A stretch of DNA of 64,000 nt, from the IMG/VR virus record IMGVR_UViG_3300042515_001753, positions 1-64,000 of that record. The stretch is one strand, 5' to 3'. The notes below the pieces were generated by a model. It made no database searches. It saw only the letters and a program-made list of their open reading frames with translations, and was not told the origin of the DNA. The position numbers were made by a program, and so were the translations under genes. Positions 1 to 57,003 of this stretch are shown piece after piece (within the stretch, counting starts at the first letter, position 1; each line of letters begins with the position of its first letter). The stretch comes from a virus.

Positions 1-3000
1 TATTGAATATAATCTGCTTATTAATACCAGCAACAGGACCAATTAATCCTTGAAGACCTTGTGTTCCTTGAATACCTTGAAGACCCTGAAGTCCTTGTGT
101 TCCTTGAGTACCTGTACCTCCTGTTCCTCCAGCAGTACCTTGAAGACCCTGAAGTCCTTGTGTTCCTTGAGTACCTGTACCTCCTGTTCCTCCAGCAGTA
201 CCTTGAAGACCCTGAAGTCCTTGTGAACCAACTGTACCTTGTGAACCTACTGTACCCTGAAGTCCCTGAAGACCTTGAGTTCCTTGTGAACCTACTATAC
301 CCTGAAGTCCCTGAAGACCTTGAGTTCCTTGTGAACCTACTATACCCTGAAGTCCCTGAAGACCTTGTGAACCAACTGTACCTTGTGAACCTACCGTACC
401 TTGAGTCCCCTGAAGACCTTGAAGACCTTGAGTTCCTTGTGAACCAACTGTACCTTGAGTCCCCTGAAGACCCTGACGACCTTGAAGACCTTGAGTTCCT
501 TGTGCTCCTTGAGTACCCTGAAGTCCTTGAGTACCCTGAAGTCCTTGAGTACCTTGAGTACCTTGAGTACCCTGGAGTCCTTGAATACCTTGAGTACCTT
601 GAGTTCCCTGGAGTCCTTGAGTACCTTGGAGTCCTTGAGTACCTTGAGTACCTTGAGTACCTTGAGTACCCTGGAGTCCTTGTGTACCTTGAGTACCTTG
701 AGTACCTTGAGTACCCTGGAGTCCTTGTGTACCTTGAGTACCTTGAGTACCTTGAGTACCCTGGAGTCCTTGAGTACCTTGAGTACCTTGAGTACCTTGT
801 TGACCTTGAGTTCCTTGAGTACCCTGGAGACCTTGAGTACCTTGAGTACCTTGAGTACCTTGTTCTCCCTGAAGACCTTGAGTACCTTGTGTTCCCTGCT
901 GACCTTGAAGACCTTGAGTACCCTGGAGACCCTGAGTACCTTGTATTCCCTGTAGGGCTGCATCCTGAATTGTTGATTTATAAATTTGGTCAGTTGCATT
1001 ATCATAAATTAAAATCAAATCATCAGAAGTTACACTACTTGTAGATATTTGACCTTTAATCGCTTGTTTTGTAACAATACCATCAAGGTATGGAGAAGTT
1101 ACAGTAGTATCAGTAACTTGCATTCCACCAGCAGCAAGTCTTACTCCATAAGGAACTTGAGTTGAACCAATACCTACACCATAATTAAATAACCAAGCAT
1201 CAGTTCCAAGTCCAGAATAAGTTCCAGACCTAACCCACATTATTTGCTTGTAACTTTCTGGAAGTGTATTAGCAGTACCAACTTGGAATGGAACTAATGG
1301 GATTCCTTCGGTAGATGCAATAGCAATACCACCGTGATTTGCGGTCGTATCAGTCGGTAAAGATATTGTTGTTAAACCCAGGACAATTTCTTTGTCCTGA
1401 ACTCTTAGTTCTGTTGCACTAATATAAACTGATGTACCACCAATTGTTAGATTATTTTGAACATTTAAATCATAGACATTTAATTGAGTCCCATCAAAAG
1501 TTAAATTATTAGAACCAGTTGGATTATTAGAACCATCTTTATAAACAACTTGGTTTGCAGAACCTGCTACTGGACCGGTTTGACCTTGAAGACCCTGGAG
1601 TCCTTGTGTACCTTGAGTACCTTGAGTACCTTGAAGACCCTGGAGACCCTGAGCACCCTGAGCACCCTGAGTACCTTGAGTACCTTGAGTACCTTGAAGA
1701 CCCTGAAGTCCTTGAAGTCCTTGAAGACCCTGAGTACCTTGAGTTCCTTGTGAACCTACTGTACCTTGTAGACCCTGAGTGCCTTGAGTCCCCTGAAGAC
1801 CCTGAGTACCTTGAGTACCTTGAGTACCTTGAGTACCTTGAGTACCCTGCTCACCCTGTAGTCCCTGAGTACCCTGGAGTCCTTGTGTACCTTGAGTACC
1901 TTGAAGACCCTGGAGACCCTGAGCACCCTGAGCACCCTGAGTACCTTGAGTTCCTTGTGAACCTACTGTACCTTGTAGACCCTGAGTGCCTTGAGTCCCC
2001 TGAAGACCCTGAAGACCTTGAGTACCTTGAGTACCTTGAGTACCCTGCTCACCCTGTAGTCCCTGAGTACCCTGGAGTCCTTGTGTACCTTGAGTACCTT
2101 GAGTACCTTGAAGACCCTGAGCACCTTGAGTACCCTGCTCACCCTGTAGTCCCTGAGTACCCTGGAGACCTTGTGTACCTTGAGTACCTTGAGTACCCTG
2201 AGTACCCTGAGTACCTTGAGTACCTTGAAGACCCTGAGTACCCTGAGTACCTTGAGTACCTTGAAGACCCTGAAGTCCTTGAAGACCTTGAGTACCTTGA
2301 AGACCTTGAGTACCTTGGAGACCTTGAGTACCTTGAAGTCCTTGAAGACCCTGAGTACCTTGAGTACCCTGAGTACCTTGAAGACCTTGTATTCCCTGAG
2401 TACCCTGAGTACCTTGAAGACCTTGTATTCCCTGAGTACCCTGAGTACCTTGAAGACCTTGAGTTCCCTGGAGTCCTTGCTCACCCTGGAGTCCTTGAGT
2501 TCCTTGCGTACCTTGAGTACCTTGCGTACCTTGAGTACCTTGCTCACCCTGGAGTCCTTGAGTACCTTGCTCACCCTGGAGTCCTTGAGTACCTTGAGTG
2601 CCTTGATGACCTTGAAGACCCTGAGTACCTTGAGTGCCTTGATGACCTTGAGTACCTTGTTCTCCTTGAAGACCCTGAAGTCCTTGAGTACCTTGTTCTC
2701 CTTGAAGACCTTGAGTACCTTGAAGACCTTGAGTACCTTGTTCCCCTTGAAGACCCTGAGTACCTTGAGTACCCTGAGTACCTTGAAGACCTTGTATTCC
2801 CTGAGTACCCTGAGTACCTTGAAGACCCTGAAGTCCTTGAAGACCTTGAGTACCTTGAAGACCTTGAGTACCTTGTTCTCCTTGAAGACCCTGAAGTCCT
2901 TGAGTACCTTGTTCTCCTTGAAGACCTTGAGTACCTTGAAGACCTTGAGTACCTTGAAGACCTTGAGTACCTTGTTCTCCTTGAAGACCCTGAAGACCTT

Positions 3001-4720
3001 GTATTCCCTGAGTACCCTGAGTACCTTGAAGACCTTGAGTACCTTGTTCTCCTTGAAGACCCTGAAGTCCTTGAAGACCCTGAAGTCCTTGAAGACCTTG
3101 AAGACCTTGAGTACCTTGTTCCCCTTGAAGACCCTGAAGTCCTTGAAGACCTTGAGTACCTTGAAGACCTTGAGTACCTTGAAGACCTTGAGTACCTTGT
3201 TCCCCTTGAAGACCCTGAAGTCCTTGAAGACCCTGAAGACCCTGAAGTCCTTGAGTACCTTGAAGACCTTGCAACGCAGCATTTTGAATTGTTGCCTTTC
3301 CTACAACTGTCCCACTTACATCATAAAGAGCAATAAAGTCTCCACTCTGCGGATCGGCAATTAAAGGAAGACCATTAATATCAAGATTTGATGCAGTTCC
3401 ATTAAAACGAGTCGCAGTTACTTCAGTATCAGTAATCTGAACATTACCAACTGCCAAACGAACTCCATAAGGAACTTGAGTTGAACCAATACCAACACCA
3501 TAATTAAATAACCAGGCATCAGTATTCAATCCGGCAAAAGCACCGGACTTGAACCACATTATTTTCTTATATGTGGCAGGTAATGTTTCAATACCAACAA
3601 TATTGAGACTTACAAGAGGAGTTCCTTCGGTAGATGCAATTGCAATACCACCGTGATTTGCCGTTGTATCTGTGGAAACATCATTACCCTGAGAATCGGT
3701 TGTAAATCCAAGAATAATGTCCGCATCACTAACTCTAAAGTTTTCAACAAGAATATAACCTGCTGTACCACCAACAGTAATATTTCCAGTTACATTAAGA
3801 TTATTATTAACCTGTAAATCATTTCCAATCGTTACATTTCCAGGTAAAGTTGGATTTGTTGAAATTGAAACAACAGGAGTTGAACTTTCTCCCGTTCCTC
3901 CTGATACATAAATCTGATTTGCCGCCCCAGAAATTGTCTGAATATAATCTCCAAATGTATCAGTTCCTAACCCAACACTATTTGGTTGAATAGTTGCTGC
4001 TAATGATACATTACCAGTTCCATCAAAACTAATTGGAGAAGCAACAACATCTCCAGTAATTTCAAAAGTTCTTGGAGTGACTAATTGAATTGCAGATGCG
4101 GCAATGCCTGTCAAGCTGCCTACAAATCCACCAAGAGATGTAGTTATACCTGTAATATAAGCGTCTCCAGAAATAGTAATCCCAGATTCGGTTGTTTCAA
4201 GTTTTACATTATTATTATAATAAAGTTGAGCACCACCATTAGGATTAAAAATTGCGCTTGTAACTGTGGCAAAAGGATCCGCAATTTGAATGTTGTTGCC
4301 TAAAATATAAAGAGTAGATCCAGAAATATCACGAATTATTGAACTATTACCATTAGAATAAATCTCTAAATCTGGATTATCACCAAAATATAATCTATCA
4401 TTAGATCTAAAATATGCATTATTTTCAAATGTTGTAATTCCAGAAATAATTAAATCCGAATTAATACCAACTCTACCACCAAAAGTAGAAACTCCCGTTA
4501 CATTTAAATTATCTGCAGTAAGATCATCAAAAAATACATCATCGGTTACATATAAATCACCAACAATATTTGTATCACCAATAACTTTAAGAGAATATTG
4601 TTCGGCATTTGTCGTTCCAATACCTACCTTTCCCGTTACCTGAATAACAGTCTTATCTTCACTATAGGATGATAAACCTACTTTGAGTTCTCTTTGCCTA
4701 CCGCTGACGTACTTATCCAT
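1..4720 (-). CDS. Collagen-repeat tail fibre-like protein (3' end beyond window)
   Basis: The frame is open from ATG at 4720 to the left edge (1573 codons seen, no stop). The N-terminal ~480 residues are beta-rich with typical phage fibre phrases (VGIGTT, LNVTGVSTFGG). Two long Gly-X-Y collagen stretches follow, built mainly from GTQ, GLQ and GEQ triplets: about 562 residues (3268-1583) and about 304 residues (about 950-38). They are separated by globular modules that are clear duplicates: DTTANHGGIAIASTEG and GIGSTQVPYGVRLA occur in both (near 3650/3480 and 1340/1150). A third module starts at the edge (GPVAG, like GPVAG at 1570). Collagen-like triplet repeats form trimeric rods in phage fibres. 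Role as a distal tail or host-contact fibre is inferred. Long open frames on the opposite strand here are repeat artefacts. Confidence 0.85.
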   Translation of the reverse strand, partial: MDKYVSGRQRELKVGLSSYSEDKTVIQVTGKVGIGTTNAEQYSLKVIGDTNIVGDLYVTDDVFFDDLTADNLNVTGVSTFGGRVGINSDLIISGITTFENNAYFRSNDRLYFGDNPDLEIYSNGNSSIIRDISGSTLYILGNNIQIADPFATVTSAIFNPNGGAQLYYNNNVKLETTESGITISGDAYITGITTSLGGFVGSLTGIAASAIQLVTPRTFEITGDVVASPISFDGTGNVSLAATIQPNSVGLGTDTFGDYIQTISGAANQIYVSGGTGESSTPVVSISTNPTLPGNVTIGNDLQVNNNLNVTGNITVGGTAGYILVENFRVSDADIILGFTTDSQGNDVSTDTTANHGGIAIASTEGTPLVSLNIVGIETLPATYKKIMWFKSGAFAGLNTDAWLFNYGVGIGSTQVPYGVRLAVGNVQITDTEVTATRFNGTASNLDINGLPLIADPQSGDFIALYDVSGTVVGKATIQNAALQGLQGTQGLQGLQGLQGLQGLQGEQGTQGLQGTQGLQGTQGLQGLQGLQGEQGTQGLQGLQGLQGLQGLQGLQGEQGTQGLQGTQGTQGIQGLQGLQGEQGTQGLQGTQGLQGTQGLQGEQGTQGLQGLQGEQGTQGLQGTQGLQGLQGLQGTQGTQGIQGLQGTQGTQGTQGLQGEQGTQGLQGTQGLQGEQGTQGLQGLQGEQGTQGHQGTQGTQGLQGHQGTQGTQGLQGEQGTQGLQGEQGTQGTQGTQGTQGTQGLQGEQGLQGTQGLQGTQGTQGIQGLQGTQGTQGIQGLQGTQGTQGTQGLQGLQGTQGLQGTQGLQGTQGLQGLQGLQGTQGTQGTQGLQGTQGTQGTQGTQGTQGTQGLQGTQGLQGEQGTQGAQGLQGTQGTQGTQGLQGTQGLQGEQGTQGTQGTQGLQGLQGTQGTQGLQGTVGSQGTQGTQGAQGAQGLQGLQGTQGTQGLQGTQGLQGEQGTQGTQGTQGTQGTQGLQGTQGTQGLQGTVGSQGTQGTQGLQGLQGLQGLQGTQGTQGTQGAQGAQGLQGLQGTQGTQGTQGLQGLQGQTGPVAGSANQVVYKDGSNNPTGSNNLTFDGTQLNVYDLNVQNNLTIGGTSVYISATELRVQDKEIVLGLTTISLPTDTTANHGGIAIASTEGIPLVPFQVGTANTLPESYKQIMWVRSGTYSGLGTDAWLFNYGVGIGSTQVPYGVRLAAGGMQVTDTTVTSPYLDGIVTKQAIKGQISTSSVTSDDLILIYDNATDQIYKSTIQDAALQGIQGTQGLQGTQGLQGQQGTQGTQGLQGEQGTQGTQGTQGLQGTQGTQGQQGTQGTQGTQGLQGTQGTQGTQGTQGLQGTQGTQGTQGTQGLQGTQGTQGTQGTQGLQGTQGLQGTQGTQGIQGLQGTQGTQGTQGLQGTQGLQGTQGAQGTQGLQGRQGLQGTQGTVGSQGTQGLQGLQGTQGTVGSQGTVGSQGLQGLQGIVGSQGTQGLQGLQGIVGSQGTQGLQGLQGTVGSQGTVGSQGLQGLQGTAGGTGGTGTQGTQGLQGLQGTAGGTGGTGTQGTQGLQGLQGIQGTQGLQGLIGPVAGINKQIIFN
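38..950 (-). repeat. Collagen-like Gly-X-Y coding repeat B
   Basis: About 304 residues of Gly-X-Y triplets in the same frame as repeat A. At 84-230 a block containing SGVGTGTQGTQ-type residues is directly repeated, and at 235-365 another block is repeated three times. Units are 9 bases, with longer 63-72 base blocks superimposed. Confidence 0.95.
1583..3268 (-). repeat. Collagen-like Gly-X-Y coding repeat A
   Basis: About 187 consecutive 9-base units encoding Gly-X-Y. The plus strand reads as recurring ACC-TTG-AGT and related units. X-Y is mainly TQ, LQ, EQ or IQ, with no proline-rich collagen bias. Larger blocks (for example 1596-1760 and 1873-2000) are near-identical, indicating recent block duplication within the repeat. 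Confidence 0.95.
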
Positions 4721-4723
4721 TTT

Positions 4724-5071
4724 TTAGTTAAGAGTTTCGAGAATACTGGATACAAACTTAATATCAGTATTATTACTTGCAGATAATTTTAAAACATCAC
4801 TAGATTCAAGAACCAACTTTCCGGATAATAAATTTGCACTATCACTTGAGGAGATTGGATATGATTTAAGAAGTTCGGTAGTCACCGCAATTCCTGTTCT
4901 CTTATTAGTTCTTTGATGAGATAAAGAAACTATTTGAGTATCTGACCCTACATTTGTTGCCTGTGCCAAAAGAACAACACCAGTATATCCAACGGGTGCA
5001 GTATAAATTCCAACCGTGTTTGTTGACCCAACAGAAGTAATTGTTTTAAATATATTAAGTGCTAGTGCCAT
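4724..5071 (-). CDS. Small virion-associated protein (115 aa), unknown
   Basis: A 115-residue protein beginning MALALNIFKTITSVG, rich in Ser/Thr/Val with alternating polar and hydrophobic residues suggesting an all-beta fold. No catalytic motif is seen. It sits three bases upstream of the collagen-fibre gene and three bases downstream of the 721-aa fibre protein, so the three genes form one late operon. Proteins of this type recur next to fibre genes in T4-like cyanophages and are usually taken as virion components or fibre adaptors; that role is inferred from position. Confidence 0.6.
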   Translation of the reverse strand: MALALNIFKTITSVGSTNTVGIYTAPVGYTGVVLLAQATNVGSDTQIVSLSHQRTNKRTGIAVTTELLKSYPISSSDSANLLSGKLVLESSDVLKLSASNNTDIKFVSSILETLN

Positions 5072-5074
5072 TCT

Positions 5075-7240
5075 TTAATCTCCTCCTAGTGCTAAAATAA
5101 ATGGTGTAAGGGTCGAAAACAAACTCTTAGAATAAAATGTACCAGAGATAGTACCAGTCTGTTGATTAATTACAACACCATCACCAATTCTAAAGTTCCC
5201 AGATTGGTCCGTACTTGTAAATACAACTAATCCTCCATTACGAGCATCAGTTTCATTTTCCTGAATTGGAACACCACCAGTTGTAGGAAGAGCAGTTGCA
5301 ATTTCAGTACCAGAACCAATATATTCTAATGAATGCCCAGATGCCAAAATACGACTCTGTTTAAAAAATGGCACCTGAGTTCCGATTCCAACTTCATAAG
5401 GAACATTATCATTTACCGTAACAGTACAAATACCGGCAGAAATTGGAGTAGAACTTAAGATTGAATAATAAGTTGGAACCATTACGGGAACCGCTATTGC
5501 TGTATTTATCCCAACTTCAGGACCGGTTAATGTAACTGTCGGAGTAGAAACATATCCCCTACCACTAGAAACCATATCAATTGCAACCACCGACCCATCT
5601 TTAACTTCCGCAACTGCTTGTGCAGTAACTCCAAAATTAGTTTCTGGATCAGATATAGTAATTTCGGGAGAAACAGAATATCCAGACCCACCAATACTTA
5701 CCAATATTTTTTCTACTGTATAGAAAAGTTCACCAAAATAAATCACCTGACCGTCAAAGGGTCTTATGACATTAATCTTTGCAGTTCCACCAGAGGCATA
5801 AGTATGGGAAAATGTAGAAACTCCAGTATAAACTGAGAATGATGTAGATGAAGCAATACTCACGACTTCAAAAATGTATCCATAATTTCCAGAAGGAAAA
5901 TTGGAAATAGTGCTAATTGATACAATACCATTATTCACATAATTATGAGTAATTGTAGAAGTCCCTACATTTACCACAAACTGATTAGATGCCGGTATTG
6001 ATATTACATTAAAAATATGATTAGAAGCTCCATTATTATCTCCCGGTGCTGGTGGAAAATATGCCGTAGATATACCACCACCAGAATTACAAGAAAATAC
6101 CAAATTAGACATCGTAACACTGATACCAACAGTAAAATTATGATTAGTAGATGTCGTTACGGTCAAAATACCAGTCGTATTAGTATAATTTGCAGTACTA
6201 ATATTATAATTAGTAACTGCATTTACCGAAGAACAGGTAAATTTCAATCCGGAAATTGAAACTCCCATTCCAACATTAAAATTATGTGGAGCATTTAAAG
6301 TAATTGTAGAGAGTCCTGTAGTATTATTATAAAGTGCGTTTGTAACATTTAAAGTTGGAGTATTTAAATTCAATACAAAAGTATCTGAATTTTCTGCCGC
6401 AGCACTTGTGACTATTCCCGTATATTTCAAGGGTCCAATACCATCCGCAACTAGTCCAAAATTACCAAAAGAGGAGTTTGAGTTTGTAAGGTCACATGCA
6501 GCACCAGACCCACAAAAAACTGCAACATCATCGCAAATAGTAAAGAGAGAAACTAACTGAGCATATCCCTCATTGGTCATCGATGCTCCAATACCACCCT
6601 GATTATATTGAGTATAGGAGTCAAGAACCATACTCTTAGTTGGTCCTATGGCATCATTTCCATCAATCTTTAATCCAATACTGTTTGGAATAAAGTTTGT
6701 ACAGTTCTGAATATAAGGTGATTGATTGAAGTATCCAATCTCTACTGGATTAAAGGCAAAAATTGCACCAGTATTTGCAGGTCCAACAAAGGACATTTCG
6801 GCAATATAATTTCCATTACTTACATAAAAAAGGTCTGCTTGATTTTGTGGAGTGACGGAGACCTCTCTTAAACTATCCCCAACAATACTAACTTGTTCGG
6901 GAATCTTAATTGGATTATTTTCTATATAACTTCCAGCACTAACCTTAATAACAGTTCCTGTTGTTGCTGCCTCAACTGCTCCTCGGATGGTTCGTTTTGC
7001 GTCTCCGAGTTTTTTTCCTGTATTTGTATCGCTTCCGTCTGTTGTGACATATAAAATATTTGTTACTGTTGCTCCGGCGCCGATGCGGATAATATCAGTT
7101 CCTATTCCAGTACGGTCCCTCCTTGCGGTTAATTCACCATCATAAGTGTTGTAGGCTAATTCTCCACTTAAGAGATTCTCTATTGTAGGTCTTTTACCTG
7201 GAACAGCAGACCTTCTAATCCTAATGGGGGTTCCGTCCAT
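5075..7240 (-). CDS. Tail fibre / beta-helix virion protein (721 aa)
   Basis: The start ATG at 7240 gives an N-terminus (MDGTPIRIRRSAVPGKRP, then LLSGELAYNTYDGEL) typical of T4-like cyanophage fibre or neck-fibre proteins. Residues ~85-130 (LYVTTDGSDTNTGKKLGDAKRTI) resemble the entry of right-handed parallel beta-helix proteins: a list-like DUF1565/pectate-lyase fold with GDSLREV and repeated short strands to ~290. Residues ~300-600 are Ser/Thr-rich beta repeats, with GGSGYSVSPEITIS and SSGRGYVSTPTVT as two copies of one motif. The C-terminus SGTFYSKSLFSTLTPF is conserved-looking. No transmembrane segment. Inferred role: receptor-contacting or baseplate fibre. Confidence 0.75.
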   Translation of the reverse strand: MDGTPIRIRRSAVPGKRPTIENLLSGELAYNTYDGELTARRDRTGIGTDIIRIGAGATVTNILYVTTDGSDTNTGKKLGDAKRTIRGAVEAATTGTVIKVSAGSYIENNPIKIPEQVSIVGDSLREVSVTPQNQADLFYVSNGNYIAEMSFVGPANTGAIFAFNPVEIGYFNQSPYIQNCTNFIPNSIGLKIDGNDAIGPTKSMVLDSYTQYNQGGIGASMTNEGYAQLVSLFTICDDVAVFCGSGAACDLTNSNSSFGNFGLVADGIGPLKYTGIVTSAAAENSDTFVLNLNTPTLNVTNALYNNTTGLSTITLNAPHNFNVGMGVSISGLKFTCSSVNAVTNYNISTANYTNTTGILTVTTSTNHNFTVGISVTMSNLVFSCNSGGGISTAYFPPAPGDNNGASNHIFNVISIPASNQFVVNVGTSTITHNYVNNGIVSISTISNFPSGNYGYIFEVVSIASSTSFSVYTGVSTFSHTYASGGTAKINVIRPFDGQVIYFGELFYTVEKILVSIGGSGYSVSPEITISDPETNFGVTAQAVAEVKDGSVVAIDMVSSGRGYVSTPTVTLTGPEVGINTAIAVPVMVPTYYSILSSTPISAGICTVTVNDNVPYEVGIGTQVPFFKQSRILASGHSLEYIGSGTEIATALPTTGGVPIQENETDARNGGLVVFTSTDQSGNFRIGDGVVINQQTGTISGTFYSKSLFSTLTPFILALGGD

Positions 7241-7305: not shown

Positions 7306-7677
7306 TCAAGAAGCATTATTTTTTCTTGGACGATAGGCATAAAGATTTGTGGGTAATGGAGGTTTCATCCATTCTTGTATTTTATCAAATCGTTCTTCAC
7401 TATAAAAATCTTGCTGAACATACCACAGTTTCCAGTGCTCGTGCCCCTTAGATTGATTACAGGAATGGCAAGAGCATACTACATTCGTAGTAGTATCTAA
7501 TCCACCTTTTGATTGAGGAACTATGTGGTCTATTGTAAGATTATCTTCGGACTCACAATAGGCACACTTATGATTCCAACTCTCTTTGATATCTTTTCTC
7601 CATATTCGTTTAGCATCCCCAGAACTTGCTGTACAAAGATTAAACAGATACTCTTTAGGCGAATGGAGAGGTCCCAT
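7306..7677 (-). CDS. HNH endonuclease (123 aa)
   Basis: A compact HNH protein. Cys pair CAYC near residue 38, the ββα core LTIDHIVPQSKGG near residues 47-59 with D-H as the metal/catalytic pair, the central N of TTTNVVC, then CHSCNQSKG as the second Cys pair and final helix. The two CxxC pairs make a structural zinc site, as in free-standing phage HNH nucleases. It stands alone between unknown genes and the late fibre operon. Whether it is a homing enzyme or a packaging-related nickase cannot be told from sequence. Confidence 0.85.
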   Translation of the reverse strand: MGPLHSPKEYLFNLCTASSGDAKRIWRKDIKESWNHKCAYCESEDNLTIDHIVPQSKGGLDTTTNVVCSCHSCNQSKGHEHWKLWYVQQDFYSEERFDKIQEWMKPPLPTNLYAYRPRKNNAS

Positions 7678-9963: not shown

Positions 9964-9992
9964 ATTATACCATTATTTGGTTTTTATATCAA
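9964..9992 (-). promoter_or_regulatory. Sigma70-like promoter TTGATA-17-TATAAT overlapping psbA stop
   Basis: TTGATA at 9987-9992 and TATAAT at 9964-9969 with a 17-base spacer. The expected start point (~9957) falls inside the downstream terminator hairpin, so transcripts starting here would lack its 5' arm and escape termination. Confidence 0.4.
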
Positions 9993-11774
9993 CCGATTGA
10001 CGGTGCCGTTAAAGCAACTTCTTGAGTAGAAGCGGCAGCAAGGTCAAGTGGAAAATTGTGAGCATTCCGTTCATGCCGTTTTTGTTATCGTAAGAACTCT
10101 TTATTTCTTACTTCTTACTGTCGCCAGTAAGACCAGACTATCTCTTCATCCGTTCTGGATGCTGGGCATTCGTGGGTAGATTATTGTTGGAACTCACTAC
10201 CTAGTCGTTAGACCTGCCGAAGAACCTATGTCCTCTTCGGATTGGTACGGGATTGTCTACTTGAGAGTTTCCCCGTTTAACCCAGTTTCGTCAAGGAATA
10301 TTCCTATTCCAGGGTGACTACATTTAGGAAATCACTTCCATACCAAGACCAGCACGATTAAGAATGTCAGCCCAAGTAGGAATTACTCGGTTTTGACTAT
10401 CAACGATGGACTGGTTAAAATTAAAACCGTTGCACTAGACCCATAAGTTTTCCATCCTTATGGAGTGGACTATATCTTCATCCCAGTAGGATGTCGGACG
10501 CTTAAACCTGTTATTAAGGAAACTATATTCCTCAGGTAGTCTCTGAACCTTTCTTGAGTGTACTCAAGACTTGGCTGCTGATTGCCCTTTTATTTGGAGG
10601 GTTTCCAGCAATTCATCCGATGTTTGCCGTTAAATTGCTTTAACGGAACCCCAATTGAGGTTAAAAGCCATCGTAGAAACCCCGAGAGCAGTGAACCAAA
10701 TTCCAACAACAGGCCATGTAGCAAGAAAGAAATGAAGCGACCTAGAGTTATTAAACGAAGCATATTGAAAAATAAGGCGTCCAAAATAACCATGAGCGGC
10801 AACGATATTGTATGTCTCTTCTTCTTGTCCGAACTTGTAACCATAATTCTGTGATTCAGTTTCTGTAGTTTCACGAACGAGTGACGAAGTAACCAAAGAA
10901 CCGTGCATCGCAGAGAACAGTGAACCACCGAACACACCAGCAACTCCAAGCATGTGGAATGGGTGCATAAGGATGTTATGTTCTGCCTGGAATACAAGCA
11001 TATAGTTAAAAGTACCAGAGATGCCTAGTGGCATAGCGTCAGAGAAAGAACCTTGACCGAAGGGATAGACCAAGAATACGGCACTCGCAGCAGCAACAGG
11101 TGCTGAGTAAGCGACGCAAATCCAAGGACGCATACCTAGACGGTAAGAAAGTTCCCATTCACGACCCATATAAGCATAGATGCCGATGAGGAAGTGAAAT
11201 ACAACGAGTTGGAATGGACCCCCATTATAGCAATCGGGGGACTATATGTTTCCATATAGATTGGACTATATCTTCACCTTATTTCTATTTAAGGTGTTGG
11301 GCGCTAATCTGGTATTACTCAACACGCTTGTTGACCCCAGTAGTCTCTGAACCTTCCACAGAAGTATCGTCTGTGGCTTGGCTGCTGATTGCCTTGTCGT
11401 ATAAACGATTTAGGGTTCCAGCAATTCACCCAATTTATAGTGACCCTATTTTACTTAAGCCACTCATCAAGACTTGCAGCTTCCCAGATTGGGTAGAAAT
11501 GCAGTCCGATAGCATTAGAAGAAGGAACAACGGCACCAGAGATGATGTTGTTACCATACATTAGAGAACCCGCTACTGGTTCACGAATGCCGTCAATGTC
11601 CACTGGGGGAGCACCAACGAAAGCGATAATGAAGCAAACCGTTGCCGCAAGAAGGCAAGGCACCATCAATACACCAAACCACCCGACATAAAGACGATTA
11701 TTGGTAGATGTAATCCAGTCACAGAAATCGTTCCAAGTATTTGTGGAACGTTGTTGAGCAATTGTAGCAGTCAT
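9989..11774 (-). CDS. psbA: Photosystem II D1 protein, four exons
   Basis: Exons 11774-11458, 11230-10658, 10432-10331 and 10076-9989 total 1080 bases, a 359-residue D1. Numbering is exact: E130 (GREWELS) marks the high-light D1 form, and the Mn-cluster ligands H332, E333, H337, D342 and A344 fall in exon 4, leaving a 15-residue C-terminal extension normally cleaved by CtpA. The introns split the codons for L106, L297 and M331, each after the second base. D1 carries P680 and the plastoquinone and Mn sites; the phage copy keeps photosystem II working during infection. An unspliced transcript would give only a 107-residue product ending EWLK. Upstream: long structured leader and strong promoter. 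Confidence 0.97.
10077..10330 (-). mobile_element. Group I intron 3 in psbA (254 nt, no ORF)
   Basis: The 5' splice site follows U of codon M331 (GAAGTGAT^TTCC); P1 pairs GUGAU with GUCAC at 10315-10311, leaving the diagnostic U-G pair. The intron ends in G (10077). Core motifs: AACGACTAGG, then GAGATAGTC near 10140. These differ from introns 1 and 2 and resemble T4 td-type introns. The insertion is immediately before the H332-E333 manganese ligands. Confidence 0.85.
10433..10657 (-). mobile_element. Group I intron 2 in psbA (225 nt, no ORF)
   Basis: Exon 2 ends AACCT^, and the intron begins CAATTGGGGTT, giving P1 AACCU/GGGUU with the U-G pair at the splice site. The intron ends ...TAGTG^CAACGG. 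Core sequences GGCAATCAGCAGCCAAG, GGTTCAGAGACTACC and GATGAAGATATAGTCC are near-identical to those of intron 1. Confidence 0.9.
11231..11457 (-). mobile_element. Group I intron 1 in psbA (227 nt, no ORF)
   Basis: Exon 1 ends TGGCT^; the internal guide GGUCAC pairs with GUGGCU, leaving U-G at the site. The intron ends ...GATTG^CTATAATGG. The conserved GGCAATCAGCAGCCAAGCC, GGTTCAGAGACTACTGG and GGTGAAGATATAGTCC core elements are all present, as in intron 2. No ORF fits inside. Confidence 0.92.
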
Positions 11775-30241: not shown

Positions 30242-30412
30242 GTATAGCATGTAATAACCCTTTAATCAAGGGGGAGTTGCGCTTCTCCAGGTTGCTCGCC
30301 ACCAATTCTTTGACTGGAAATTGGAAACCAGACGGGAGTAACCTCCATCCGCACCAGTCGTCATTTATATCGCCCATACGACAAGGGCATTAAGGGGTCA
30401 TATTTGACTCCA
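30242..30412 (-). ncRNA. Structured leader RNA upstream of gmd (possible wcaG-type motif)
   Basis: A 170-base gene-free stretch rich in complementary segments on the minus strand: GCCC/GGGC around 30390-30374, CCAATT/AATTGG around 30328-30306, GGAG/CTCC pairs near 30350 and 30285. It ends at the terminator before gmd-fcl. The wcaG RNA motif of cyanophages is reported upstream of exopolysaccharide genes, so this is a candidate, not a verified match. A 61-codon frame (30192-30377) crosses it but shows no convincing protein character. Confidence 0.4.
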
Positions 30413-32464: not shown

Positions 32465-33427
32465 TCAGTTACCGATACGCTTTACGGCAATTCTTGATTT
32501 GTTGAGAATGCTACCGGCAAGAGGAACATAACCCAGATCATCAGCAAGCATTTGTGCCTTAGAACTCAAAGCATAATTGAGTGCCTGTTGAATATCACCA
32601 GTCTTTGCACCATTTCCAGTCTTATAGGCAAGAATCCAAGTCAGAGTGGAGATAGGATATGCACCAGAGGCAGAAGGATTAGGATTTTCGCCAGCAAGAT
32701 TTGCATCCAGTTTGATAGAGTTTAGAGCAATAGCACCAGACTTAGCAGTAGGAAGAACAAACTGCCCTGCCTTATTTTGAACTGCTGCTGTCTGAAGTTT
32801 ATTTGCTTTCACAAATCCGGTATTCACATAACCAATAGAACCAGGAGTGGTCTTAACAGTACCAGAAACACCTTCATTTCCTTTACCACCAATACCAACA
32901 GGCCATTTTACTGACTTACCAACTCCAGGTTTCCAACCACCAAAAGCATCCAGAGAATTAGTAAATGCAAAAGTAGTTCCAGAACCATCAGAACGATGAA
33001 CCACAAGAATAGGTCCAGCAGCACATCCAAGTGCCTTCCAGTTCTTGATGGTTCCAGAAAACACATCTACAGTTTGCTTCTGAGTGAGTTTCAGAGTGCA
33101 TCCAGGTTTGTTATAAGCAACGGCAATAGTTCCACCCACCATAGGAATTTGAACCACGCCACGCTTAACTTTACTTGCCTCTTTTGACGAAATAGGTTCA
33201 TCAGTTGCACCAAAATCGACAGTTCCTGCGACATACTGACGGACACCAGAACCAGAACCAACTGACTGATAATTCACACGATTGCCAGTTTCAGAAGCAT
33301 AACCTTGGAACCAGCGTTGATAGATGGGTGCTGGAAAGGTGGCACCAGCACCATTCAAAGGAGGTCCAGCAAGAGCGGCAACAGGAGCAGCAACCAGACC
33401 AGCAACAATAAGATTTTTGAGTTTCAT
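32465..33427 (-). CDS. pstS: Phosphate ABC transporter substrate-binding protein
   Basis: Signal peptide of ~20 residues (MKLKNLIVAGLVAAPVAALA), then the PstS signatures GAGATFPAPIYQRWF, QSVGSGSGVRQYV, DFGATDEPIS, VVHRSDGSGTTFAFT and KGNEGVSGTVKTTPG, the residues that cage phosphate. The protein would be exported to the host periplasm and feed phosphate to the host PstCAB importer; the phage needs phosphate for DNA. pstS is a known cyanophage auxiliary gene under host PhoB control, and a Pho-box-like repeat stands upstream here. Confidence 0.95.
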   Translation of the reverse strand: MKLKNLIVAGLVAAPVAALAGPPLNGAGATFPAPIYQRWFQGYASETGNRVNYQSVGSGSGVRQYVAGTVDFGATDEPISSKEASKVKRGVVQIPMVGGTIAVAYNKPGCTLKLTQKQTVDVFSGTIKNWKALGCAAGPILVVHRSDGSGTTFAFTNSLDAFGGWKPGVGKSVKWPVGIGGKGNEGVSGTVKTTPGSIGYVNTGFVKANKLQTAAVQNKAGQFVLPTAKSGAIALNSIKLDANLAGENPNPSASGAYPISTLTWILAYKTGNGAKTGDIQQALNYALSSKAQMLADDLGYVPLAGSILNKSRIAVKRIGN

Positions 33428-33549: not shown

Positions 33550-35034
33550 TCAGAATGTGAACTTAGTCTGGACTACACCACCCCACTTGCTGGAATCTTG
33601 ATAACGCTGATTGTTATCAACATAGAACAGAGCAGGAGTAATGCTGATGTTATCGGTGACTTGGAACTTGTAGAAGATTTCAAGCAGAGTTGCATCATCT
33701 ACACCAGCGGTTTCGGCAGAAGGTGCTTGACCCAAAGCAATACCAGCAGAGTTACCCTTAGCAAAGACATCGCTCCACTGAAGACCAACCATCCAAGAAT
33801 TGGAATCAGTAGCATCACCCGAACCAGGAGTACCACTTACACCATTATATCCATAAGCAGCAGAAACGGAAGGAACCCAACCAGATTGTTGTGGTTGCCA
33901 ATAAGCATTAAGAGCAACACTATTGGATTCTTGACCAGCAGCAAGAGTACCATTAGCACTCAAGAGACCGTTGTAGGTGCGCGAACGAGTGCCTTCAGTA
34001 CCATAACGGTAACCTACGGCAACACCCCACTGAGGAGCACGATAACCAACTTGAGCAAGCAGGTTCAGAGCACCATCAGCATTGAATACACCAGTTTCGG
34101 AATCATCACCGTTCTGAGCAACATAGTTCAGACCAGCAACAAATCCACCTTGACCTTTCTTGGTAGGTTGTTTCCACTGAGCACCAAAACCAGCACCAGT
34201 TGCCTTGTTATAGACACCGGGAACACCAGAAACAGCAAAGAAGTCAAGAATTTCTGACTTATAAGCAGAAGGAATCCATGCCATCTCGGTATTACGAACC
34301 AGAGGACCAGCAGTTAGAGTTAGACTCTTACTTACAGGGAACTGGTAGTAAAGACGATCGATCTCTACAGTTCTATCGGTAGATTCTGCCTTATCAAGTT
34401 TGAACAAAGAAGAACTAGAACCAAAAGGATCGCTACTGAAGTTACCGGAACGAAGACGAGTACGGAGCAAGTCCTTACCAGTAAACGAGGTATCAAAGTT
34501 CAGACGCAGATCATAGTTGAATGCGGTGTTACCCACATCAGCACCTTTATTGGTTTCAAGACTAGGAACTCCACCAAGCATGAAATTGACTTCACCCTTG
34601 AGTTTAGTAGTGGTAGAGAATTGTGTTGCTTCCAAGTTTCCAACACGGTTCTCCAGACCATCTACACGACCCTTGAGTACTGCAAGTTCACTCTTGAATT
34701 CGTTCAGCAGTCGTTGAAGTTCATCTGTAGTTTCAGTCACACGATCCAAACAGGCATTCAGCAGTGCTGCTGCTTCAAAGCGAGTCATTGCCTGACCACC
34801 TTTGTATGTGCCGTTAGGATAACCAGCAACGCAACCATAACGGTCTACGAGGTTGGTAAGTGCCTGATATGCCCAATCAGTAGGTTGGACATCAGAGAAT
34901 TGAGTAACACTTGTAACCTGTGCTGCCGAAGCATACTTATTGACATCCTCAGTATTGAGTTCTGCAGCGATAGCAGCAGGAGCAACAAGACCCAGAGCAA
35001 CAGGGACGAGCATTAGTTTTTTAAGAAAATTCAT
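33550..35034 (-). CDS. Cyanobacterial-type SLH porin (494 aa)
   Basis: Signal peptide (MNFLKKLMLVPVALGLVAPA then AIAAE), an SLH domain (FSDVQPTDWAYQALTNLVDR to QAMTRFEAAALLNACLDR, residues ~45-95) that holds the porin to peptidoglycan, a short coiled coil (ELQRLLNEFKSELAVLKGRV), then a beta-barrel of the SomA/OprB type ending in aromatic F (GGVVQTKFTF). This is the architecture of major cyanobacterial outer-membrane porins, so it was probably captured from a host. Placed just upstream of pstS in transcription order, it may raise outer-membrane phosphate flux; that is inference. Confidence 0.88.
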   Translation of the reverse strand: MNFLKKLMLVPVALGLVAPAAIAAELNTEDVNKYASAAQVTSVTQFSDVQPTDWAYQALTNLVDRYGCVAGYPNGTYKGGQAMTRFEAAALLNACLDRVTETTDELQRLLNEFKSELAVLKGRVDGLENRVGNLEATQFSTTTKLKGEVNFMLGGVPSLETNKGADVGNTAFNYDLRLNFDTSFTGKDLLRTRLRSGNFSSDPFGSSSSLFKLDKAESTDRTVEIDRLYYQFPVSKSLTLTAGPLVRNTEMAWIPSAYKSEILDFFAVSGVPGVYNKATGAGFGAQWKQPTKKGQGGFVAGLNYVAQNGDDSETGVFNADGALNLLAQVGYRAPQWGVAVGYRYGTEGTRSRTYNGLLSANGTLAAGQESNSVALNAYWQPQQSGWVPSVSAAYGYNGVSGTPGSGDATDSNSWMVGLQWSDVFAKGNSAGIALGQAPSAETAGVDDATLLEIFYKFQVTDNISITPALFYVDNNQRYQDSSKWGGVVQTKFTF

Positions 35035-37809: not shown

Positions 37810-37897
37810 ATAAGGAACCTCCCTGTTTGTGCTTCTATGAGAGGCATGGGAGGTGTGGGATTTATAAGAAGTTTGGACCTCCTCCACCCGTGAACCT

Positions 37898-55424: not shown

Positions 55425-55834
55425 CAAATGTCTCCATCTTCACGATTTTCACTATAGTATGCGTCAAAAAATCCGTCTGGATAACGCTTCATCAGTTTAT
55501 CAATATTAGTCTGAATTACTTCATCAAAAGAGACATCAAGAGCAATACACGCTTGTGCCACATACCACATCGTATCACCCAGTTCCTTAATCAAGTGAGT
55601 ACGGGTCTCATCATTCCAAGACTTACCTTGAAAGACCATTTTCTTGACTATTTCTAAAAACTCACCACCCTCGGCATTAATTCCCACAGAGGCAGTCAGA
55701 AGACGCTCAATATTAGCACCTTTCTCATCCAACTGAACCATACGGTCAGAAAGAGCAAGGAAATCTTTGGATGCATCAGAAGTTACGGCATCTACGAAGT
55801 TCTGATACTTATTAAAATCAACTCGTTGTGTCAT
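55424..55834 (-). CDS. mazG: MazG-like nucleotide pyrophosphohydrolase (136 aa)
   Basis: MazG motif ExxE...ExxD: GINAEGGEFLEIVKKMVFQG (residues ~50-69) and THLIKELGDTMWYVAQACIA (~78-97), all four metal ligands present. Hydrolyses NTPs, in cyanophages suggested to act on (d)GTP/(p)ppGpp-linked pools and to help reprogramme host metabolism. Overlaps gp41 C-part gene by 4 bases. Confidence 0.88.
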   Translation of the reverse strand: MTQRVDFNKYQNFVDAVTSDASKDFLALSDRMVQLDEKGANIERLLTASVGINAEGGEFLEIVKKMVFQGKSWNDETRTHLIKELGDTMWYVAQACIALDVSFDEVIQTNIDKLMKRYPDGFFDAYYSENREDGDI

Positions 55835-57003
55835 GAAAATTTAAATCCCTCAAATGATTTTTTTGGTTTATTTTCTTCATTATTATACTCCTCTTCTTTA
55901 CCGCTGTCAAGTATGTCGTTTTGTGCGGACTGTTCTACATCATAAAGTCTCATTTTGGCACGGTCAATTCCAACAACGAAACGCTTAAAGATTGTTGGGT
56001 CATTATATCTGTTTTTAAGTTGCTTCACCATAATCTGCCCTAGACCTTCTAATTCCTCGGTACTAATCAGAGCAAACATAAGGTCGGCAGTAGCAGGAAG
56101 ACCGAACGATTCAGAAGTATCGGTCAATTCTACATCGGAAGAACCAAAACCGCTCCTAGTCGTCTGTGTCGCACTCATAATAGGAACATTAAACTCTACT
56201 GCCAAACCACGAAGTTCTTCGGCAATAGACTTAACCAAAGTATAAGAATTGATATTACTACCACTCTTAAATCGTGAGGAGGAGCAAATATTCAAATAGT
56301 CAATAAAGATAATATCAGGTCTAAATGATTTCTTCAGAGCAAGTTCATTCAGAAGTGCCTTGAAGTGCCCGGAGTGTGCCGAAGCAGTAGGATATTCTTT
56401 GATTACCAAAGAACCCCGAGTCTTCTTGGAAATACCATTTACTTTATTCTCAAATGCTGAGCGTGGTAAATCAATCAGTTGTTGAATTGGAACATTAAGA
56501 AGATTCGCATCAATTCTTTCGGCAATTCTTTCTTCTGCCATTTCAAGAGTAATATAAAGAACATTTCTATTCTGTAGTAAGGCAGAACTGGCAACGTGAC
56601 ACATAAAGAGAGATTTTCCAACTCCAGTATTGTGAGAGGAAACTCCATTAGTGTAATATCTATGATTTGGATGATTTACATTAATATCTACAATAGGTAT
56701 TTGTTTATTGTTTTTATAAACCCGACCAATTTTAATACCCTCGTTAGTAATCAATTTGTATATTAAGTTAGATTGTTCCATTTCTTTAGCGGAAATCCAA
56801 CCTTCAGTAGTTTCAAACAAATGGGACTCATTACAACTAACTTTATTACCCCCCATCATAAGCAATTCATATTCTTCATACATCCCCTTATTAATAAAAA
56901 AATTAACAGGAACATATCCATCGGGAGAATCAACCTCCACTTCATATCCATTATCAAGTAATGTTTTGATTTCAGCAATCGATGTTTCTTTTTCAATCCA
57001 CAT
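55831..57003 (-). CDS. 41: gp41 helicase C-terminal part with C-intein (390 aa)
   Basis: Residues 1-125 are a C-terminal split-intein piece: a block-B-like NKVSCNESHLFETTEGWISA and block F/G VDINVNHPNHRYYTNGV ending SSHN, the penultimate His and terminal Asn needed for splicing. Residue 126 (Thr, +1) starts the helicase: TGVGKSLFMCHVASSALLQN (rest of Walker A), IIFIDYLNICSS (Walker B), SATQTTRSGFGSSDVELTD, GIDRAKMRLYDVE. Trans-splicing with the 57688-58320 product would give a 459-residue DnaB-type replicative helicase, close to T4 gp41 (475). Confidence 0.93.
   Translation of the reverse strand: MWIEKETSIAEIKTLLDNGYEVEVDSPDGYVPVNFFINKGMYEEYELLMMGGNKVSCNESHLFETTEGWISAKEMEQSNLIYKLITNEGIKIGRVYKNNKQIPIVDINVNHPNHRYYTNGVSSHNTGVGKSLFMCHVASSALLQNRNVLYITLEMAEERIAERIDANLLNVPIQQLIDLPRSAFENKVNGISKKTRGSLVIKEYPTASAHSGHFKALLNELALKKSFRPDIIFIDYLNICSSSRFKSGSNINSYTLVKSIAEELRGLAVEFNVPIMSATQTTRSGFGSSDVELTDTSESFGLPATADLMFALISTEELEGLGQIMVKQLKNRYNDPTIFKRFVVGIDRAKMRLYDVEQSAQNDILDSGKEEEYNNEENKPKKSFEGFKFS
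56629..57003 (-). other. C-terminal half of atypical split intein (125 codons)
   Basis: Starts at its own ATG (57003). It carries blocks B, F and G, so almost all of the intein fold is on this side, and the N half is only 16 residues. The intein splits the helicase Walker A motif (AG^TGVGKS). Confidence 0.9.

Follow-up and report, generated by a model that had tools for sequence, protein, structure and literature searches.

The window analysed here makes up the first 64,000 bases of a virus record that is 233,886 bases long. The virus carries psbA, 20 clustered tRNA genes and T4-type genes, and its nearest isolate is S-SRM01 (81% over a small part); it is therefore a T4-like cyanophage, probably from freshwater. 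A minus-strand frame (2-4720) is free of stop codons over 1,573 codons up to the window edge, where the record ends as well. The sequence-only reading of this DNA had described the frame as a collagen-repeat fibre of at least 1573 codons, in which two rods of about 562 and 304 residues alternate with duplicated globular modules. This description was confirmed: the rods were each within two residues of the sizes proposed, and the two modules of the inter-rod type were related in sequence (Table 1). The recent block duplications also suggested there were detected as tandem repeats of 63 bp (2.4 copies, 100%) and 45 bp (2.9 copies, 98%).

Table 1. Coordinates in the window of the fibre gene, its parts and its upstream neighbours
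Feature	Position	Strand	Remark
5' part of collagen-rod fibre gene (1,573 codons)	2..4720	-	cut at record base 1; four more rods and S74 C-terminus beyond
Conserved N-terminal motif MxKYxSxRQxxLKxGxSSYxE...VGIGTT, aa 1-40	4601..4720	-	proposed virion-docking segment
N-terminal globular part, aa 41-484; final portion is the first TANHGGIA-type module	3269..4600	-	
Collagen rod 1, aa 485-1048, 564 residues, Gly-X-Gln dominated	1577..3268	-	
Inter-rod module 2, 209 aa, 55% identity to first module	950..1576	-	
Collagen rod 2, aa 1258-1560, 303 residues	41..949	-	
Third module, first 13 aa	2..40	-	rest in contig L014
Cut copy of 149-bp exact repeat (gene positions 4615-4763; recurs at 6073)	1..106	-	
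115-aa jelly-roll, virion-type protein (phrog_1276)	4724..5071	-	adjoins fibre gene, upstream, in every relative found
721-aa tail-fibre protein (phrog_17885)	5075..7240	-	upstream in 49/54 relatives
HNH endonuclease gene, synteny anchor	7306..7677	-	same neighbour in P-SSM2, S-SKS1 and S-SRM01

A search of IMG/VR with the second module as query gave two metagenome contigs with 100% identity across the 11,588 bp that were compared. Of these, L014 carried the frame to 3,127 codons, continuing the third module that had been noticed at the window edge and adding further modules and rods. The record stops inside a 149-bp exact repeat that occurs twice in the gene, and contig L011 terminates exactly where this repeat ends; the repeat is therefore the probable reason for the assembly break at the window edge. 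The final 127 bases of L014 match without a difference the 127 bases with which, in gene sense, the far end of the record begins; they occur there once, and an exact overlap of this length would be what neighbouring contigs share in a k=127 assembly graph. The joined gene is 10,008 bp long, a multiple of three with one terminal stop. Since this last junction lies within repeats, where extra tandem units could be missing, the encoded 3,335 aa are to be taken as a lower bound. No stop codon followed soon past the edge; the frame ran on to a normal fibre C-terminus, and the fibre is about twice the length visible in the window. It follows from the joined reading that about 4.5 kb are absent from the record and that both record ends belong to one gene, which fits the expectation for a circularly permuted T4-like genome. 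Direct closure of the record ends without L014 was rejected, as it would jump from the start of a module to the middle of a rod.

The complete protein contains six rods (564, 303, 159, 189, 294 and 129 residues; 1,638 in total) separated by five internal modules (209, 327, 153, 211 and 161 residues), with an N-terminal part of 484 residues and a C-terminal part of about 152 residues. Glycine occupies the first position in all 546 rod triplets, the X position is usually taken by Thr or Leu, and 477 triplets have Gln in Y; charges are few, and neither Pro nor Lys occurs at all. The Pfam Collagen model (PF01391) scored 445.2 bits over 11 stretches (cut-off 27.2), identifying the rods as collagen-like sequence. 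By analogy with phage collagens of E. coli (PMC3368898), the rods would form trimeric triple helices, and with the value of about 0.29 nm per residue used in that study, a fully triple-helical state would give the rods alone a span of roughly 470 nm. Conservation is strong in the first 40 residues, with 17 invariant columns among ten relatives. At the C-terminus, which lies at the other end of the record and is in frame via L014, we detected a Peptidase_S74 domain (PF13884, 55.3 bits, cut-off 22). Its Ser-Lys dyad (SDERLK; L009:9136-9885) has the two residues five apart, the spacing of S911/K916 in endoNF (PMC8326128). A structure model of the module generated with AF2 was poor (pLDDT 62); Foldseek searches with it returned nothing below E 0.001, the weak top matches being trimeric phage stalks that we do not count as evidence, and the module had no sequence relative in the PDB.

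The longest exact repeats in rods 1 and 2 were 97 and 90 bp, respectively. Shuffling of 9-bp units gave a mean longest repeat of 45 bp for rod 1 and 36 bp for rod 2, and the observed values were reached in 0/500 shuffles. A first-order Markov null that kept unit neighbours reached them in 31/500 (rod 1) and 22/500 (rod 2) cases, and part of the repeat length is therefore explained by local order alone.

A scan with the conserved N-terminal segment yielded 54 frames starting with the motif. The 115-aa gene lay directly upstream in all 54, the phrog_17885 fibre gene preceded it in 49, and Gly-X-Y rods were present in 39. The gene is thus the third in a conserved fibre/jelly-roll/fibre cassette, in which both upstream genes are adjacent and the third gene carries the motif. 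A beta-sandwich like those of cyanophage virion proteins is predicted with confidence for the 115-aa protein (pLDDT 89.5). Best PHROG matches of the fibre were all to tail families, and some weaker ones are filed under head and packaging. P-SSM2, S-SKS1 and B23 share the three-gene layout and a related N-terminus in the absence of collagen, and for this reason the fibre slot seems, from gene order and sequence, to be old and the rods to have been added to it. In S-SRM01, both upstream genes and a module-bearing gene nearby are present, and collagen and the N-terminal motif are absent. Among full-length relatives, the closest (L015-L019) have a different C-terminus, in which the S74 motif is lacking. 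When 84,980 genomes were scanned by pattern for a bacterial donor of the rods, only five stretches on four contigs came up, three of them MAG contigs, and no donor was identified.

The record of the window virus holds a second cassette of the same order (fibre, phrog_1276, collagen fibre; L010 4287-11890, minus strand; record 196286-203889), which ends in a 1,332-aa collagen fibre; in its first fibre (976 aa), LDVDxATTLNxT occurs as a short tandem repeat. A 276-aa glycine-rich protein (L009 7153-7983, minus strand; record 231152-231982) is encoded two genes downstream of where the fibre ends; it is reminiscent of gp38-type tip adhesins and had no PDB or family match. Genes for a 2OG-Fe(II) oxygenase and a GT25-type protein are found just downstream of the fibre. 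We rejected these as collagen-modifying enzymes because the rods offer no Pro or Lys to hydroxylate; such a role is also disfavoured by the presence of similar genes in phages with a collagen-free fibre and by the occurrence of the enzyme genes in only a minority of relatives, as judged from the fetched flanks. Glycosylation of Thr in Gly-Thr-Gln was considered as a candidate idea only.

Several features elsewhere in the window were recorded. Three group I introns (Rfam matches at 11242-11479, 10441-10667 and 10114-10366) appear to interrupt the psbA gene (9992-11774, minus strand), with exon matches at the protein level at 11067-10654, 10431-10330 and 10114-9992. The first part of a DnaB/gp41-type helicase frame (55831-57003, minus strand) resembles the C-terminal segment of an intein (HRYYTNGVSSHN before TGVGKS), and the helicase may therefore carry an intein. 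By eye, an SLH-porin-like, host-type outer-membrane gene adjoins a pstS-type phosphate-binding gene (33550-35034 and 32465-33427, minus strand). An abiF RNA family match (37817-37853, minus strand; 44.8 bits, gathering 37) adjoins the tRNA cluster, and a wcaG RNA match (30288-30390, minus strand) adjoins a run of sugar-nucleotide and glycosyltransferase-like genes.

We then compared rod lengths among relatives. In contig sets from different metagenomes, aligned modules showed 0-2 substitutions, and rods differed by 9, 45, 54, 72, 81, 90, 126 or 162 bp, each a multiple of nine. As a control for the flanks, L154, L156 and L155 were identical over 10,000 bp on the upstream side and over 2.6-5.7 kb on the downstream side, and their fibre genes differed by 9 and 162 bp; L015-L018, also with identical flanks, differed in the gene by 54 and 90 bp. 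Between near-identical genomes, almost only the rods, and not the modules or flanks, change length, so that the reach of the fibre seems to outpace the surrounding sequence in its rate of change. The rapid change in fibre length anticipated by the sequence-only reading is supported by these relatives, which are identical over kilobases yet unlike in rod length. Length variation was seen in the relatives only; in the window's own virus, rods 1 and 2 were base-identical in three separate assemblies.

Could the rods be products of short-read assembly, with true lengths that are different and with collapses accounting for the differences between relatives? Exact repeats of 125-227 bp, a size close to or beyond the usual k-mers, do coincide with some of the differences, a 149-bp repeat is where the window record was broken, and events in exact repeats of 96-227 bp could be collapse errors. 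We gave little weight to L025, which has a 255-bp difference at a point without homology and may be chimeric, and to L024, with its gap-like indels upstream. However, exact homology at five length-change events is 17, 35, 53, 65 and 74 bp, short enough to be resolved by 150-bp reads, and collapse at these events is therefore unlikely. The agreement of three assemblies on rods 1 and 2, within which no exact repeat exceeds 97 bp, and the ten kb of identical flank in L154/L155/L156 also argue against an artefact, and we regard it as an improbable account of the rods.

Taking the observed frame, domains, cassette and length variation together, we think it likely that the gene encodes a host-adhesion fibre of a T4-like freshwater cyanophage, with trimeric rods as spacers, an end folded by S74 and a reach that changes through repeats. 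Placement on the virion and a role in binding are inferred, and relatives are the basis for proposing docking, trimerisation and binding. The N-terminus would dock on the baseplate or tail, and the chain would trimerise so that modules and rods make up a long trimeric shaft. The S74 domain would fold the C-terminus as a trimer, set the register for zipping of the triple helix and then cut itself off. Modules may serve as trimeric knots, hinges or contacts, and the rods would be spacers keeping the tip up to about 470 nm off the particle. Duplication or deletion of DNA repeats would alter the rods by whole Gly-X-Y triplets and leave the docking and tip domains untouched, so that reach could vary with frame and folding kept. 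Set against this reading are the rods free of Pro and Lys, unlike the collagens of E. coli phages, the poor module model, the last junction lying in repeats, and the lack of the S74 motif in L015-L019.

The fibre might instead be real and sit elsewhere than on the tail, as a whisker of the head or neck or as a decoration, where it would slow diffusion or hold on to mucilage and would not bind the infection receptor. The resemblance of the small jelly-roll protein to virion and cement-type proteins, and the weaker PHROG matches under head and packaging, would suit such a structure, but the best matches are tail families, the syntenic genes of P-SSM2 and S-SKS1 are annotated as tail fibre or baseplate wedge, and S74 ends typically belong to tail spikes and fibres; we consider a location off the tail unlikely. 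The composition of the 546 triplets, without Pro or Lys and with few charges, could also mean that the Gly-X-Gln stretches form polyproline-II bundles or flexible, disordered tethers. A glycine period of three that is kept up over 564 residues and the gain or loss of whole triplets speak for a triple helix, however. Hydroxyproline is also dispensable in bacterial and viral collagens, where Gln or Thr is preferred in Y. Bundles or tethers are thus left with little probability.

The rods of the fibre may act as a length dial: repeat slippage or recombination would generate standing variation in reach inside a single phage population at a far higher rate than point mutation, with docking and tip domains unchanged, as a phage counterpart of repeat-based phase variation. 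We put this forward tentatively, as a possibility that falls short of an even chance. A fibre of roughly 470 nm, if so long, would be more than twice the length of its particle, taking the scale from the relative S-SRM01 with its 85-nm head and 100-nm tail (PMC8557907). It would be free of proline and hydroxyproline and encoded by a DNA repeat whose length visibly differs from one sister genome to the next. This makes it testable whether phages tune the reach of a fibre and not its tip alone, and offers very long natural proline-free collagen sequences for study.

Collagen fibres are already annotated in freshwater cyanophages, and the window fibre is an extreme variant of these; what is new is its scale, the six-rod layout and the evidence for rod-only change between sister genomes. 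We found no description of a cyanophage fibre of this architecture in the open literature, subscription journals lying outside that search. The gene has the largest total of rod residues among the fetched loci; one relative, L262, has a viral frame of about 1,445 aa in which the only Gly-X-Y rod is 1,224 residues long. The freshwater T4-like cyanophages S-CRM01 (HQ615693) and DSL-LC02 (OR032571) likewise have Gly-X-Y genes, whose products are annotated as collagen or tail fibre and often have Gln in Y. These proteins are shorter, however (237-874 aa), with a longest merged Gly-X-Y stretch of about 270-393 residues that is partly irregular, and the six-rod architecture is absent in the genes examined. 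PSSM2_295 of P-SSM2 (1,170 aa) and SWZG_00010 of S-SKS1 (1,727 aa) occupy the same slot (psbA ... HNH, phrog_17885 fibre, small jelly-roll gene, then fibre) and have a related N-terminus but, unlike the window fibre, no collagen rod at all.

Collagen fibres of E. coli prophages have been characterised biochemically: AUC, CD and EM showed trimers with triple helices, and length differences in multiples of three among Col sequences have already been noted (PMC3368898). The collagen-like side tail fibres EPclA and EPclB from O157:H7 prophages resemble the window fibre in having collagen rods between globular trimerising domains and Col lengths that vary by multiples of three. In contrast, their rods are of about 111 residues and rich in Pro and charge, to which the stability of E. 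coli phage collagens has been attributed, and they have a coiled coil, one or two rods only and other capping domains. With the Peptidase_S74 tail spikes and fibres, the window fibre shares a C-terminal PF13884 domain and a Ser-Lys dyad at the right spacing; characterised S74 domains sit below beta-helical stalks, whereas that of the window fibre follows a short stretch after a collagen rod.
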